Of a DNA stretch of 64,000 nt, positions 4,786-41,165 are shown in pieces. The notes below the pieces were generated by a model. That model was not told the DNA's origin, ran no database searches, and saw only the letters and a list, made by a program, of their open reading frames with translations. The position numbers and the translations under genes were made by a program. This DNA comes from Metabacillus dongyingensis (GTDB lineage Bacteria > Bacillota > Bacilli > Bacillales > Bacillaceae), in NCBI RefSeq assembly GCF_019933155.2, contig NZ_CP082944.1, positions 498,001-562,000 on the forward strand, written 5' to 3'. Position 1 is the stretch's first letter. Every line of letters starts with the position of its first letter.

Positions 4786-5808
4786 ATGTTCGGATTAAAA
4801 AAGGTATCCATGATTATGTGTGCAGGGGCACTTGCTTTTAGCTTAGGTGCCTGCAGCAGCGGAGAGAAAGCTTCTTCGGGCAGTACAGGTACAGGCTATC
4901 CATCAAAGGCTTTAACGGTTGTCGCTCCATCAGGTGCCGGAGGAGGATGGGATTTAACAGCGAGGTCGTTCGTGAAGGTGTTAAGTGAAACCAAGCTTGT
5001 AGACCAGCCGCTCACCGTAGAAAACAAACCAGGCGGAGGCGGAGCGGTATTCATGGCTGAATATGCCACACAGGATGTGCAAAATAATGAGCGGTTATTT
5101 GTCAATTCGCCGCCTGTTATCATCAATAACCTGAAGAAAGAAGGAAACAGTCCTTACGGATATAAAAATACAACTCCTCTTGCTCAATTGACGAAGGATT
5201 ATGGGGCAATTGTTGTTAAAGAAGATTCAAAATACAAGGATCTGCAATCTTTATTGGAAGATGTGAAAAAAAATCCGGGCAAGCTTACATTTGCCGGCGG
5301 ATCAGCTCCAGGTTCAATGGATCACCTGATTTCAATTCTTCCAGCTTATGCAGATGGAGTGGATCCGACAAAGTTAAGATATGTTTCCTATGATGGGGGA
5401 GGAGAGGCGATTACAGCTCTTCTAGGGAACAATGCTGACGTAATTGGAACTGATGTATCAAGCGTCAAGGAGTTCTTAAAGGCAGGCAAGGTAAGAGTAC
5501 TTGCTACAACTGCATCCGAACGGCTTCAAGGCGAACTTAAGGATCTTCCAACTGCGAAAGAGCAAGGAATTGACGCAGAATTCACCATTTGGCGAGGAGT
5601 TTTTGGCCCAGAGAAAATGTCTGATGAAGCTTATAAATATTGGGAGAAAACAATTAAAAATTTAGTAGAGTCTGAAGAATGGATAAAGGAAGTCGAAACA
5701 CAGGGATGGGAAATGGAATATAAGAATGGCGAGGACTTTAAAGCATTTTTAGGAGAGCAGGAAAAACAAGTGCAAACCCTGCTTAAGGCTGTTGGAATGT
5801 CGAAATAA
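4786..5808 (+). CDS. tctC: Tripartite tricarboxylate transporter substrate-binding lipoprotein
   Basis: Extracytoplasmic binding protein of the TTT family (TctC/Bug), which delivers citrate or related carboxylates to TctAB. The 340-residue product begins with a lipoprotein signal peptide ending in the lipobox LGAC, so it is anchored to the outer face of the membrane. The GAGGGWDLTAR stretch is a typical Bug-family substrate loop. The ATG at 4786 is preferred over upstream in-frame codons because AAAGGAGG lies 5 bases before it and the signal peptide starts there. A cre site precedes it. It is the first gene of tctC-tctB-tctA. The exact substrate is not predictable. Confidence 0.88.
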   Translation: MFGLKKVSMIMCAGALAFSLGACSSGEKASSGSTGTGYPSKALTVVAPSGAGGGWDLTARSFVKVLSETKLVDQPLTVENKPGGGGAVFMAEYATQDVQNNERLFVNSPPVIINNLKKEGNSPYGYKNTTPLAQLTKDYGAIVVKEDSKYKDLQSLLEDVKKNPGKLTFAGGSAPGSMDHLISILPAYADGVDPTKLRYVSYDGGGEAITALLGNNADVIGTDVSSVKEFLKAGKVRVLATTASERLQGELKDLPTAKEQGIDAEFTIWRGVFGPEKMSDEAYKYWEKTIKNLVESEEWIKEVETQGWEMEYKNGEDFKAFLGEQEKQVQTLLKAVGMSK

Positions 5809-5819
5809 TTGTGAAGCTG

Positions 5820-5850
5820 AAGAAGGAGGCAGTCTCCTTCTTTGCTTAAA
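5820..5850 (+). terminator. Weak hairpin after tctC (attenuator-like)
   Basis: A 9-bp stem AAGAAGGAG/CTCCTTCTT with a 5-base loop, followed by a short interrupted T run, immediately after tctC. Partial termination here would give more binding protein than permease, a common arrangement. Confidence 0.5.
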
Positions 5851-5884
5851 GTTTTTTAGAAAGCATAAAATTTACCGTTTCTAT

Positions 5885-6003
5885 GTCTAGCTCCACCGCC
5901 CAACTCCCAGGCCAGAACAAATTCACTCAGGATAGTCAAATCAGACTTTTCTGAGTGAATTCTAATCTGTCATGCCTGAGCTAAACGGGCGGTTCCGCTT
6001 TTC
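5885..6003 (+). repeat. Dispersed structured repeat, copy A
   Basis: About 120 bases folding as one long interrupted hairpin: an 11-bp perfect stem AATTCACTCAG/CTGAGTGAATT encloses an AGTC/GACT core, and an outer CCGCC/GGGCGG pairing closes it. It shares layout and the conserved TCTGTC-like strand with copies at about 6505, 29522 and 44508. It lies between tctC and tctB. Confidence 0.7.
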
Positions 6004-6024
6004 CTATTAGAAAGGATGATTCAG

Positions 6025-6477
6025 ATGTCAATCAAGTTTGACAGGGCAGCAGCCGTTTTGTTTTTAGCGGTGGGAGCGCTCTTTATGTATGGCAGTATGC
6101 AGATAGCGGAATCTTCATATGGAAGTGTTGTCGGACCTAATATTTTTCCGTTCTTTCTAGGTGCCATCCTTTTTCTGCTTAGCCTTCGTTTGTTTTATGA
6201 AACCTTTCATTACGAGAAAAAATACGGAAAAAAAGAACCTTTGCAGATGAAAGCTTTCATCATTATTTTTCTTGCAGCACTGCTTTACATAGCAGCACTT
6301 GAAACAATCGGATATGTTATCACGACATTTGTTTTTCTATTTATATGCTTTCAAACAATGGAGCGCGGAAAATGGTTGAAATCGATTGTAATATCTGCTT
6401 GTTTTTCTGCCGGGATCTATTACTTATTTGTTGTTGTTCTAAAAGGAACCCTGCCAAGCTTTCCGGTATGGTTTTAA
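6025..6477 (+). CDS. tctB: Tripartite tricarboxylate transporter small membrane subunit
   Basis: Small integral membrane component of the TTT transporter, about 150 residues with four predicted membrane segments (near residues 9-25, 40-56, 76-100 and 117-145). It pairs with the large permease TctA. The ATG at 6025 is preferred to the one at 6016 because AAAGGA at 6011-6016 then lies 8 bases upstream. The sequence is weakly conserved as usual for TctB; context between tctC and tctA makes the call firm. Confidence 0.85.
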   Translation: MSIKFDRAAAVLFLAVGALFMYGSMQIAESSYGSVVGPNIFPFFLGAILFLLSLRLFYETFHYEKKYGKKEPLQMKAFIIIFLAALLYIAALETIGYVITTFVFLFICFQTMERGKWLKSIVISACFSAGIYYLFVVVLKGTLPSFPVWF

Positions 6478-17205: not shown

Positions 17206-17655
17206 ATGATGTGGGTCTTGGGACAGCTAGTGACAAGCTTTATTTCTACAGCTGCATTCGGCATTATTTTTCAGGCGCCTAAACCTTCCCTCATTAAATG
17301 CGGACTTGTAGGGATGTGCGGCTGGATGATCTATATATCTTTGGTGGGCTATGGCTTTGATGCAGTTCCTGCTACTGTCATTGCAGCAGTATTTGTAGCT
17401 GTGACAAGTCAGGTTTTTGCAAAGATCTACAAAACGCCGATTATTATTTTCAGCGTAGCCGGCATTATTCCATTGGTTCCTGGAGGAATGGCGTATGACG
17501 CGATGAGAAATTTCGTTGAAAATGACTATAATACCGCGATTACATTAGCTGCAAAAGCATTTATGATATCAGGTTCCATCGCGATCGGCCTTGTTTTTTC
17601 TGAGGTAATCAATCAAGTCATAAGAAGGTCTCAGCTTCGTACAAAGGTTAAGTAA
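17206..17655 (+). CDS. ThrE-family exporter small subunit (YjjB-like)
   Basis: A 149-residue hydrophobic protein with about four to five membrane segments and the VAGIIPLVPGGMAY motif that mirrors MPLVPGLL in the large subunit. This is the second half of a split ThrE-type amino acid or dicarboxylate exporter. AAGGGAGAG lies 8 bases upstream, and it is co-transcribed with the preceding gene. Confidence 0.86.
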   Translation: MMWVLGQLVTSFISTAAFGIIFQAPKPSLIKCGLVGMCGWMIYISLVGYGFDAVPATVIAAVFVAVTSQVFAKIYKTPIIIFSVAGIIPLVPGGMAYDAMRNFVENDYNTAITLAAKAFMISGSIAIGLVFSEVINQVIRRSQLRTKVK

Positions 17656-17833
17656 ATGGGAATACAAATGAAACCGGAGACAGCGTTAAGGAGACTTGGG
17701 GAGACGGAGCTTATATTCTCAGCGCTCGGACTTGGCACGTGGCAGTCAGCAAAGGCAGCTAAATGCCTGCCCTGCAGCCTTAAAACGTATGCAGCCGCTT
17801 ATTGAGCTGCTGGATCAATTGGCGCCTGAATAA
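17656..17833 (+). pseudogene. Aldo/keto reductase remnant
   Basis: From the ATG at 17656 or 17668, a frame reads RRLGETELIFSALGLGTWQ, the diagnostic N-terminal strand of aldo/keto reductases. About 15 codons later the similarity breaks off and the frame stops. A second frame continues with ALKRMQPLIELLDQLAPE, plausible as an internal or late helix of the same family, and ends at 17831-17833. A complete member needs about 300 residues, so most of the gene has been deleted. The N-terminal assignment is strong; the second segment is tentative. Confidence 0.6.
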
Positions 17834-17838
17834 AGAGA

Positions 17839-17880
17839 AAAAGGATACTAAATTGCACAGCAATTGGTATCCTTTTTTTA
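17839..17880 (+). terminator. Terminator after the reductase remnant
   Basis: Stem AAAAGGATAC/GTATCCTTTT with a nested AATTGC/CAATT pairing in the loop and a T tract. Confidence 0.8.
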
Positions 17881-17919
17881 CGTTTTGTGAGAAGTGATTA
17901 TTATTGTCTTTCAAGTGAG

Positions 17920-18840
17920 CGGGTCTGTTTTGGGGAATCAACCGCCCCTTATGATTCCTCAAAACTTGTAGTAGTGCTGTTTGGGGAATCATAGAACGCT
18001 ATGAGCATTCAAAACCGTCAAGTAGTGCTGTTTGGGTAATCATAGCCCCGCTATGAGTATTCAAAACCGTCAAGTAGTGCTTGTTTGGGTAATCATAGCC
18101 CCGCTATGAGTATTCAAAACCGTCAAGTAGTGTTGTTTGGGGAATCAAAGGTCCGCTATGAGTATTCAAAACCGTCAAGTAGTGCTTGTTTGGGTAATCA
18201 AAGGCCCTCTATGAGTAGCCAAAGTGCTGTTTGGGTAATCATAGACCCGCTATGAGTATTCAAAACCGTCAAGTAGTGCTTGTTTGGGTAATCAAAGGCC
18301 CTCTATGAGTAGCCAAAGTGCTGTTTGGGTAATCATAGACCCGCTATGAGTAGCCAAAGTGCTGTTTGGGTAATCATAGACCCGCTATGAGTATCCAAAA
18401 CCGTCAAGTTAGTGCTGTAGGAGGAATCATAGACTCGCTATGAGTATTCAAAGTTATAAAGTAGTGTTGTTTGGGTAATCATAGCCCCGCTATGAGTATT
18501 CAAAACCGTCAAGTAGTGTTGTTTGGGGAATCAAAGGTCCGCTATGAGTATTCAAAACCGTAAAGTAGTGCTTGTTTGGGTAATCAAAGACCCGCTATGA
18601 GTATTCAAAACCGTCAAGTAGTGCTTGTTTGGGTAATCAAAGGCCCGTTATGAGTATTCAATACCCAAGAGAAGTGCCGTTTTGGGAATCCATCCACCAA
18701 ATCCACCATCAATGAGTATCCAAAACCCATGAGTAGTGCTGTTTGCAGAATCATTCGCACGGCATGATACATAAAACCTCGTAGTATTCCTGTAAGATGA
18801 TTCTCCGCCCGAAATGATTCTCCAAAATCCGCGATTTTCC
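17920..18840. repeat. Tandem array of imperfect hairpin units (52-53 bp, plus 41-bp variants)
   Basis: Roughly 14 well-conserved units with degenerate units at both ends. Successive CTATGAG anchors lie at 18000, 18052, 18105, 18158, 18210, 18251, 18304, 18345, 18386, 18440, 18491, 18543, 18595 and 18650, giving periods of 51-55 bp and three of 41 bp. Each unit is an imperfect palindrome, with GTTTGGGTAATCATAG facing CTATGAGTATTCAAAAC, plus a conserved CGTCAAGTAGTGCTT linker. The left-most unit (17927-17965) is an almost perfect 14-bp inverted repeat (GTTTTGGGGAATCA against TGATTCCTCAAAAC, 11-base loop). The period is not a multiple of three, so it is not coding. No cas genes are present and the linkers are conserved, so it is not CRISPR. 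Confidence 0.9.
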
Positions 18841-18877
18841 CAAGGTAGATACGTTTATGCTAAACGGTTTCTTGTAT

Positions 18878-18916
18878 TTTACAAACCCCTAACAATTCCT
18901 TCATATAAATCTATAT
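18878..18916 (+). promoter_or_regulatory. Candidate PhoP box before ugpB remnant and glycerophosphodiesterase
   Basis: TTTACA, CTAACA and TTCATA follow one another with 5-bp gaps (18878, 18889, 18900), the 11-bp periodicity of Bacillus PhoP direct repeats (TTHACA). Glycerophosphodiester catabolism is a classic Pho-regulon function, which fits the position. Confidence 0.4.
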
Positions 18917-18970
18917 TATCTTCATACTGGGTTTACCTTAAAGAGGTATGATGGAATTCGTTAAGGACAA

Positions 18971-19223: not shown

Positions 19224-20045
19224 ATGAATCAGTCTTTTAGATTCGTCGGTTCCTATTTTGACAGAATCTCAGAATTGCTTCATGGAAAGGAGGACAAAGT
19301 CTTGAGCAAGCCAGTTGAAATATACGCACACCGGGGATGCAGCGGCGAGTTTCCTGAGAACACGATGGCCGCATTTGAAGCGGCCTGCAAGATTGGGGCA
19401 GATGGCATTGAGCTTGATGTGCAGATGACAAAGGATGGAGAAGTTGTTGTTATGCATGATGAACAAATTGACCGGACAACGAATGGGATTGGATTTGTAA
19501 AAGATTTCAGATACAAACAATTAAAGTTGTTTGATGCAGGAAGCTGGTTTCACCCTAAGTTTTCGCGGCAAACCATTCCCTCTTTACAGGATGTCCTGGA
19601 CTTAATCAAAACAAGCGGTTCTGAAATGAAAGTAAATATTGAACTGAAAAATAACGTCCTGCTCTATGAAGGGATGGAAGAAAAAGTGCTCCAGTGTGTA
19701 CAGCGATCAGGAATGATGGACTCAGTCATTCTCTCATCCTTTAATTTTAAAAGCATGGGGAGGATGCGGGAGCTGGACAATGACATTCAAACGGCCCTTT
19801 TATTCGAAGGAATTCCATCAAACATTATGGAGGAAGCACGGAAGGTTCGGGCAAATGGCCTCCATTCAGAAGCTTCATTTGCAGTCTCAGCTGCTGGAAA
19901 AAGAACCGTTGAGGCAGGGTATCCCCTCAGAGTTTTTACAGTAAATCAGACTGATAAACTAGAGGAATTGGCCAGGTCGGGTGTTTCTGCCCTTATTACT
20001 GACAATCCAGGATTATTTTTAGAGAATAAGAGTGTGCCTTTTTAG
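19224..20045 (+). CDS. Glycerophosphodiester phosphodiesterase (UgpQ/GlpQ-like, cytoplasmic)
   Basis: Hydrolyses glycerophosphodiesters to glycerol-3-phosphate and an alcohol. The 273-residue GDPD-family TIM barrel shows IYAHRGCSGEFPENT, GIELDVQMTKDG and the catalytic HDEQIDRTTNG segment. No signal peptide is evident, so it is likely cytoplasmic. Two starts are credible: ATG 19224 behind TAGGAGGA, and TTG 19302 behind AAAGGAGG, the latter removing 26 residues that are not part of the conserved domain. It follows the ugpB remnant by 12 bp, as in ugp-linked phosphodiesterase operons. Confidence 0.9.
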   Translation: MNQSFRFVGSYFDRISELLHGKEDKVLSKPVEIYAHRGCSGEFPENTMAAFEAACKIGADGIELDVQMTKDGEVVVMHDEQIDRTTNGIGFVKDFRYKQLKLFDAGSWFHPKFSRQTIPSLQDVLDLIKTSGSEMKVNIELKNNVLLYEGMEEKVLQCVQRSGMMDSVILSSFNFKSMGRMRELDNDIQTALLFEGIPSNIMEEARKVRANGLHSEASFAVSAAGKRTVEAGYPLRVFTVNQTDKLEELARSGVSALITDNPGLFLENKSVPF

Positions 20046-39974: not shown

Positions 39975-41165
39975 TTGCTTAAAAACAAACATGCTGCAGT
40001 GATCGTAAAACTGGCACTTATGATTAGTTTATTTATTCCTGTGTTTCATGCTTCGCCATCACAAGCTTCAACTGGAGACGGCTCTTGGACAGCACCGTAT
40101 TCAGTAGCTCAGGCAAATGCCAATCAATCTGGTTCTGTTAAAACGGTTAAAGGATACGTTGTGGGACAGCCGACCGCCGCTAACACGGTAGTGACATCCA
40201 ATTATCCAAATGATTATGCACTTGCTCTCGCAGATTCACCGTCAGAAACAAGTACTTCTAAAATGATTTATGTCCAAATTTCATCCTCGTTCCGAACACA
40301 ATTTGGTTTGAAAACGAACCCTTCTCTAAAAGGCACGGAAATGAAAGTGACGGGTAAACTTGCAGCCTATTTTTCTCACAGTGGGATAACGGGTGCGACA
40401 GCTATGGAAAAACAATCTGGAACCACTGACCCGACTGACCCGACTGACCCGACTGACCCTAGTGATCCACCCCCTTATGATGACACATATTATCAATCTG
40501 CTATAGGGAAGACAGGCGAAGCTTTAAAGACGGAACTTCATAATATCATAGACGATCATAGAGAGCTTTCTTATGACAATGTCTGGGAAGCACTCAGAAA
40601 CACAGATGAAGACCCAAACAATCCGAACAACGTCATTCTGCTTTATACAGGACGTTCACAAAGCAAACTTTCAAACGGCGGAAATGTGAATGATTGGAAT
40701 AGAGAGCACGTTTGGGCCAAATCACATGGCGACTTTGGAACAAGTGCCGGTGCCGGTACTGATATCCATCATTTAAGACCAACTGATGTTTCAGTAAACA
40801 GTTCAAGAGGCAATCTTGATTTTGATAACGGAGGAACACAGCACTCTGAAGCTTTAGGCAACTACTATGACTCTGATTCATGGGAGCCGAGAGACGCTGT
40901 GAAAGGTGATGTGGCCAGAATGTTATTTTACATGGCGGTCCGTTATGAAGGTGACAGCGGCGAGCTGGATCTTGAACTGAACAACAATGTTAACAATGGA
41001 TCAGCCCCGCTGCATGGAAAAATGTCTGTTTTACTTGAATGGCACAGGGAAGATCCAGTAGATGCACGAGAAAGAAGAAGAAATGACATCATCTTTAAAG
41101 ACTATCAATCTAACCGCAATCCATTTATAGATCATCCCGAATGGGCTGAATCCATCTGGAACTAA
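39975..41165 (+). CDS. Secreted endonuclease I family nuclease with OB-like N-domain
   Basis: A 396-residue extracellular nuclease. It has a Sec signal peptide (about 1-33, cleavage after SQA), then an OB-fold-like DUF6359-type domain (about 40-150: APYSVAQANANQSG, KGYVVGQP). A Thr-Asp-Pro repeat linker leads to an endonuclease I (Bsn/YurI-like) domain with the catalytic NREHVWAKSHG and TDIHHLRPTD motifs. It likely degrades DNA or RNA outside the cell for phosphate and nucleoside scavenging. The start is taken as TTG 39975, nine bases after AGGAGG; an ATG-like start at 39942 would ignore this site. Confidence 0.87.
   Translation: MLKNKHAAVIVKLALMISLFIPVFHASPSQASTGDGSWTAPYSVAQANANQSGSVKTVKGYVVGQPTAANTVVTSNYPNDYALALADSPSETSTSKMIYVQISSSFRTQFGLKTNPSLKGTEMKVTGKLAAYFSHSGITGATAMEKQSGTTDPTDPTDPTDPSDPPPYDDTYYQSAIGKTGEALKTELHNIIDDHRELSYDNVWEALRNTDEDPNNPNNVILLYTGRSQSKLSNGGNVNDWNREHVWAKSHGDFGTSAGAGTDIHHLRPTDVSVNSSRGNLDFDNGGTQHSEALGNYYDSDSWEPRDAVKGDVARMLFYMAVRYEGDSGELDLELNNNVNNGSAPLHGKMSVLLEWHREDPVDARERRRNDIIFKDYQSNRNPFIDHPEWAESIWN
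40428..40462 (+). repeat. 9-bp tandem repeat in the nuclease linker
   Basis: Consecutive copies of CTGACCCGA-type 9-mers encode (Thr-Asp-Pro)n between the two domains. Such in-frame repeats can change copy number without frameshift. Confidence 0.7.

Follow-up and report, generated by a model that had tools for sequence, protein, structure and literature searches.

In a window of 64,000 nucleotides of the Metabacillus dongyingensis chromosome (positions 498001-562000 of the 5.054-Mb contig NZ_CP082944.1, whose base 1 reads as the start of dnaA), an array of tandem inverted repeats at 17.9-18.9 kb raises the question of what exactly is repeated there and what the repetition is for. An earlier note on this DNA had described about 14 imperfect hairpins separated by conserved linkers, and had offered protein-binding clusters, a structured RNA or replication/recombination foci as possible explanations.

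Anatomy and helical spacing of the array

The tandem array of about 14 units is confirmed, since TRF places a 53-bp unit in 13.9 copies at 17970-18665, with a score of 802. The imperfect hairpin is in part confirmed: the palindromic arms are present, but the unit is more correctly described as a pair of palindromic sites that face one another. The site consensus, the symmetric 14-bp palindrome TTTGAGTACTCAAA, comes from a weight matrix for which 15 arrays of this genome served as training set. A scan with the matrix finds 15 good pairs of sites, 20-21 bp apart, with pair-to-pair steps of 30-32 bp (20 bp in three units of 41 bp), and a decayed sixteenth pair made of 18681 and 18711, 30 bp apart. 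Sites scoring at least 9 number 31 inside 17900-18840 against 4 in the remaining ~63 kb of the window. The features of the locus are as follows.

17206-17655, plus strand: left neighbour, a ThrE_2 domain protein (threonine/serine exporter family; Pfam PF12821)
17838-17877, plus strand: inverted repeat followed by a run of T, where the preceding transcription unit probably terminates
17929-18724, no strand: ordered array of 14-bp palindromic sites (PWM scan with spacing list, and TRF)
18031-18065, no strand: example unit, with site TTTGGGTAATCATA (18031-18044), a 7-bp loop and the inverted site TATGAGTATTCAAA (18052-18065)
18210-18243, no strand: first 41-bp variant junction, site starts 18210 and 18230, with 6 bp between the sites versus the usual ~17
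18304-18337, no strand: second 41-bp variant junction, site starts 18304 and 18324
18345-18378, no strand: third 41-bp variant junction, site starts 18345 and 18365
18681-18826, no strand: right edge in decay, with a good site at 18711 (score 14.0) flanked by weak ones at 18681 (6.2) and 18813 (9.8)
19224-20045, plus strand: right neighbour of known family, a glycerophosphodiester phosphodiesterase family protein (Pfam PF03009)

The three shortened units that had been reported are genuine. In each of them the site starts lie 20 bp apart, not 30-32, so that the longer step has lost about one helical turn. Decay, claimed for both edges, is borne out at the right one by the low scores at 18681 and 18813, the latter a weak outlier beyond the ordered series that ends at 18724. 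The inverted repeat noticed at the left edge does exist (14 bp, 93%, 17950-17963 with 17980-17993), but it spans two neighbouring units and is not one unit in itself.

The 52-bp unit thus consists of two 14-bp palindromes that alternate at ~21 and 31 bp, corresponding to two and three helical turns (52 = 5 x 10.4). Among 931 distances between adjacent sites, taken from the arrays of this genome and of a relative of the same genus (G005), 398 are 21, 366 are 31 and 99 are 52, the last arising where one intervening site is too weak; distances of 32 (27 cases) and 30 (9 cases) are rarer, and those of 22-29 sum to 4. A common period of 10.40 bp fits these distances best (mean cosine 0.94, 4350 site pairs), a value that is partly forced by the 52-bp repeat itself. 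Of the non-canonical spacings counted at the level of arrays, 26 of 36 lie near a helical multiple; because most of them are only 1 bp off the canonical value, the indel evidence for helical phasing is weak. With centres ~21 and 31 bp apart, all dyads lie on nearly one face of B-DNA. The 21/31 layout is demonstrated for this genus and seen by eye in G276, a genome of another family, and in M. indicus, a scope narrower than the whole class of such repeats discussed below. In a best-dyad test against plain shuffles, p<0.05 was reached by 6 of the 19 consensus units taken from the literature and by 19 of 67 derived here.

Remnants of a reading frame lie at 17656-17830, after the exporter gene and before the array. 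The frame is shortened here by comparison with ~5450-6420 of locus L048; in M. idriensis it resembles, by eye, an aldo/keto reductase. On the other side, upstream of the phosphodiesterase gene (~18877-18935), TTCATA/CTAACA-like hexamers recur by eye in ~11-bp steps and are reminiscent of PhoP boxes.

Distribution and turnover of the arrays

The array is real, lies far beyond chance expectation and has counterparts genome-wide. With 501 bases of it as query, blastn gives 46 matches in the genome, and at least 23 arrays are found on the chromosome. They comprise 21 that were fetched, the window array included, all with TRF periods of 52-53 and at least 4 copies, and two clusters, one at 663 kb and the other at 1.03 Mb, that are known from site hits alone, at steps of ~52 bp or multiples. 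The pattern TTTGRGKANTCAWA, with at most one mismatch, occurs 1090 times in the genome versus 66 for the backward control, and the exact pattern TWTGANTMCYCAAA 377 times versus 1 for the reversed control, both strands summed. All 100 exact TWTGANTMCYCAAA matches listed, which cover the first 1.26 Mb (to 1.255 Mb), fall inside arrays, 81 in the fetched ones and 19 in the two clusters.

The 21 fetched arrays are intergenic, sitting between predicted genes. At L022 the following reading frame, by its called start, shares 52 bp with the end of the array, and parts of L010 and L020 are covered by short frames of 86-130 aa. The flanking gene pairs are co-directional in 10 cases, convergent in 9 and divergent in 2, and the 42 flanking genes are mixed. 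Among the Pfam families listed for the flanks (25 of 85), GNAT acetyltransferases number at most 4, and none of the direct neighbours is named cas. The earlier note had called the array unlike CRISPR, and identical repeats with unique spacers are not what is seen, since linkers recur within an array. A plasmid or phage origin was rejected, neither collection containing a match to the arrays; in the viral_contigs set there are two stretches with one palindromic place each.

For the earlier note, a neutral minisatellite would among other things imply that the unit is absent elsewhere; besides the arrays on this chromosome, the genomes of relatives also match. The closest named relatives in a search with the neighbouring genes include Metabacillus idriensis and M. 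indicus. When 80 genomes of 6 genera of the family were surveyed for a pattern of the TTTGRGKANTCAWA type, the clearest excess was in the window's own genus, in the present genome and in G005 (300 vs 78), followed by M. idriensis DSM 19097 (143 vs 64) and G004 (105 vs 55); in the remaining three genomes of the genus the count was not above controls. In a second genus one genome (G025) has 70 vs 22, and many have up to ~2x the control. A sequence model of the unit matches 4 of 7 genomes of the genus (E<=0.01) and 7 of 397 drawn from the order (E<=1e-4). Two genomes of other families, G241 and, by eye, G276, carry 52-bp arrays with a similar site. G089 and G251 have one model match each, and TRF finds no 52-bp array in the stretch fetched from either. 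The weak match in G089 led to a 41-bp-period repeat with another motif (L131, 3758-3911). M. indicus has 52-bp arrays with a different motif, and the units of other species are built of other inverted words at other arm distances.

Arrays come and go rapidly among close relatives. Nineteen loci of the present genome were compared with G005 through flank matches of 83-97% (mostly 93-97%). Among the 18 resolved, an array is present in 7, which had been picked from G005's own array loci, four sites in 1 and 0-2 sites in 10; two further loci were not located in G005. Since 10 of these 18 orthologous loci are array-less there, no single array among them can be essential. In M. idriensis 14 loci were tried and 11 resolved, with six sites in one and 0-2 in ten, counts obtained with the matrix of the present genome, which may miss diverged arrays. 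The window locus itself has 22 sites in G005 and a single two-site unit in M. idriensis. The orthologous arrays at 1203 kb and 3251 kb differ in their units, and some otherwise empty orthologous sites retain one unit or a remnant. This turnover is compatible with arrays that expand from seeds, collapse again and to some extent spread from locus to locus, given that certain arrays have common linkers (L014, L015 and L017; L018 and L021). Opposite L018, the G005 locus holds ~140 bp with other repeated words, TTTACTTTCC-like by eye. The record NZ_SMZY01000004.1 is titled Peribacillus frigoritolerans F-D2; its exporter is 96% identical to that of the window, and the record is possibly mislabelled.

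Constraint on sites and on pairing

Such rapid turnover is what would be expected if the arrays were a selfish or neutral satellite, amplified in tandem through slippage and unequal exchange, propagated through gene conversion and devoid of function, the words common to all of them reflecting recent ancestry. The linkers common to some arrays and the single units or remnants left at orthologous sites agree with this explanation. It is, however, at odds with the distribution of variation. Linkers had been thought conserved and arms changing, and the opposite is the case: site columns vary less than linkers and loops. In the window array, eight distinct units give a variation of 0.036 in the sites versus 0.156 in linker plus loop. 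Within arrays at large, the values are 0.070 and 0.127, and sites are the less variable in 24 of 28. Because the anchors of this test had partly been chosen by site score, it was repeated with units chosen by linker/loop similarity only, a choice that biases against site constraint. Sites again varied less (0.123 vs 0.155; 21 of 29 arrays, p=0.004), and 12 units of the window array picked in this manner gave 0.158 for sites and 0.229 for linker plus loop.

The same is seen between arrays. An alignment of 17 array consensus units has nine invariant columns, every one within sites, an invariance partly built in by anchoring on site scores. In 20 TRF consensus units of the present genome, aligned by overall similarity, the information resides in the same site words. 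Loops and linkers differ between arrays, whose sites and spacing are shared. In other genera, moreover, the 52-bp length is found again with sequences that are unrelated (see also PMC8161180). The satellite explanation is thus unlikely, though it deserves serious consideration.

The signs of selection concern the sites rather than hairpins. Compensatory changes, which the earlier note had named as the mark of a selected structure, are not what the arrays display. Pairing between sites A and B, the two arms, amounts to 70.6% in 17 arrays versus 77.1% after shuffling, and 500 of 500 shuffles equalled or exceeded the observed value. As related arrays are not independent, this deficit is read only as giving no support to selection for a hairpin, whether in RNA or as a cruciform. 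Covariation between palindrome halves is likewise absent in these 17 arrays (dyad A 0.655 vs 0.668 shuffled, dyad B 0.538 vs 0.568), a result that speaks against the protein-binding explanation favoured below.

This bears directly on the idea of an array transcript that folds into hairpins and acts as an RNA sponge or small RNA. Two-unit stretches do sometimes fold better than shuffles (z -5.2 to -0.5 in 8 folds), and 52-nt repeats of B. coagulans have been reported in RNA-seq data (PMC8625621, in part). Folding alone is ambiguous, and it is the pair count by which the RNA hairpin is rejected. Around the window array, transcription signals do not favour it either. The array starts ~50 bp past the probable terminator, an inverted repeat that a terminator scan with a loop limit of 8 did not list, and promoter-like sites number 6 versus 4.7 +- 2.5, no clear excess. 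Rfam has no match to the array, its one sub-threshold, snoRNA-like match lying outside. We consider an RNA function improbable.

A proposed landing platform and the 52-nt repeat class

Among the options offered by the earlier note, protein-binding clusters fit best, because the sites are palindromic, helically spaced and more constrained than the linkers. With slightly better than even confidence, we propose that a dimeric DNA-binding protein, probably one that organises the nucleoid, uses the array as a landing platform phased with the helix. The anatomy described above would then be that of a row of operators. Bound dimers could touch one another along the array, their dyads being on nearly one face. 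Since all exact sites listed for the first 1.26 Mb lie in arrays and at least 23 arrays exist, the binder is not expected to be an ordinary regulator. It would assemble extensive nucleoprotein patches at particular spots on the chromosome, with a possible role in nucleoid folding, tethering or domain marking. Individual arrays may expand, contract and seed new ones at other loci, the sites being preserved by selection. Neither the flanking genes nor the Noc comparison described below pointed to a binding protein, and none of the papers listed in the literature searches identifies one by its title and start of abstract. This lack of a binder, the array-less loci of G005 and the different inverted words of other species weigh against the proposal.

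Nucleoid occlusion would be a more specific version, in which Noc or an SlmA-like TetR protein occupies the arrays and blocks division over the nucleoid. The Noc sites of B. subtilis are 14-bp palindromes, many per chromosome and dispersed. The sites described here are alike in length and symmetry; they differ in sequence and are clustered in arrays. The Noc site, ATTTCCCGGGAAAT, occurs 5 times in this genome with at most one mismatch versus 5 for the control, with no exact occurrence, in a search that had no positive control. All 20 genomes searched encode Noc, and the stretch compared, which presumably holds its recognition helix, is identical, I/V apart, in 17 of 19 proteins. The array motifs differ among those same genomes. 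Because the recognition stretch is constant while the motifs are not, Noc is held to be an unlikely reader of the arrays.

The case for an SlmA-like protein is that the core GAGTACTC of the site is also the centre of the palindromic SlmA site GTGAGTACTCAC (PMC3116907, in part), although flanking bases differ. According to the same source, the SlmA sites of E. coli are 12 bp long, ~50 in number, mainly within genes and absent from Ter, whereas those described here are clustered between genes; the passages of PMC3116907 drawn on here do not speak of tandem arrays. The first quarter of the chromosome does hold 16 of the 23 known arrays, or 14 of 21 without the two found among the exact sites listed to 1.255 Mb, a density that is not relied on because the sites so listed extend to 1.255 Mb only. 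On the other hand, two arrays lie at 2.84-2.87 Mb of the 5.05-Mb chromosome. It appears quite improbable, even a little more so than an RNA, that nucleoid occlusion is the function of the arrays.

REP elements are longer hairpins, and in BIMEs and REP clusters they stand between genes as alternating inverted elements in tandem. The present arrays follow the same intergenic plan, with short and long linkers as in BIMEs, and might thus have been moved by a REP-associated transposase. However, hairpin pairing is not conserved here, and no GTAG-type tag common to the 17 consensus units is visible by eye. We regard this as the least probable of the explanations considered.

The absence of a described function, as stated in the earlier note, must be qualified. 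The window array belongs to a known and unexplained class, the constant-length 52-nt repeats of Bacillus, which were published as species-specific and to which the passages drawn on here assign no function (Subirana and Messeguer 2021, PMC8161180); a repeat survey by the same authors appeared in 2019 (PMC6749651, in part). A nucleoid protein and small RNAs were both raised as explanations, and 20-21 nt was remarked to equal two helical turns. In the tables of that paper, B. indicus (now Metabacillus) is listed in Table 1, and Table 4 lists no 51-53-nt repeats for B. subtilis. The present arrays agree with the published description in their length of 52 +-1, at least 4 copies, non-coding, intergenic position and many arrays per genome. 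They also agree in species-specific sequence with partial conservation between strains, and in short common words that occur with their reverse inside one repeat.

The main text of PMC8161180 does not use the term 'palindrom', whereas paired palindromes at two and three turns are described here; nor was a site-versus-linker comparison or a covariation test seen in the parts drawn on. The 41-bp units are a local run of 20-21-bp steps; these steps are two turns long, as the published 20-21-nt repeats are, and differ from them in being nested in a 52-bp array. The present analysis adds to the class a lattice of operator-like sites, indications that selection acts on these sites and not on hairpins, rapid gain and loss of arrays, and arguments against Noc as the binder.

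Seventy-eight Bacillaceae-centred loci (up to ~10 kb round one orthologous gene) contain 29 tandem repeats with a period of at least 22. Ten have period 52 (7 of them intergenic by script), 2 period 156 and 11 period 40-42; the period-52 loci are not independent, because several come from strains of one species. When array stretches of seven genomes (five named species) were searched against their own genomes, 4 to 80 matches each were obtained. In six of the seven the listed matches include places elsewhere, and those listed for G465 are all in one array.

It is tempting to suppose that a single system underlies both the 52-nt and the 20-21-nt repeats of Bacillaceae, namely helically phased rows of operators for a rapidly evolving DNA-binding protein by which the nucleoid is folded or anchored. 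We think this tentative proposal possible rather than probable. If true, such a system would be for bacteria what satellite DNA with its binding proteins is elsewhere, with site sequence and protein co-evolving from species to species at a fixed spacing. The 52-nt repeats are a published puzzle, having a fixed length and no fixed sequence, and resolution into two palindromes would explain the 52-bp length in this genus. The exact palindromic site pattern supplies a probe for finding the binder. Such a protein, if found, would reveal a hitherto unseen layer of chromosome organisation in Bacillaceae, one not visible in B. subtilis.

Two minor observations concern other repeats. In the window, a perfect 9-bp tandem repeat, ACTGACCCG, is present in 3.9 copies at 40425-40459 (TRF). 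Elsewhere, intergenic repeats of period 42, or four helical turns, occur in ~2 copies in Fictibacillus (L112, L116 and L119) and Neobacillus novalis (L124), and are perhaps the same kind of lattice.
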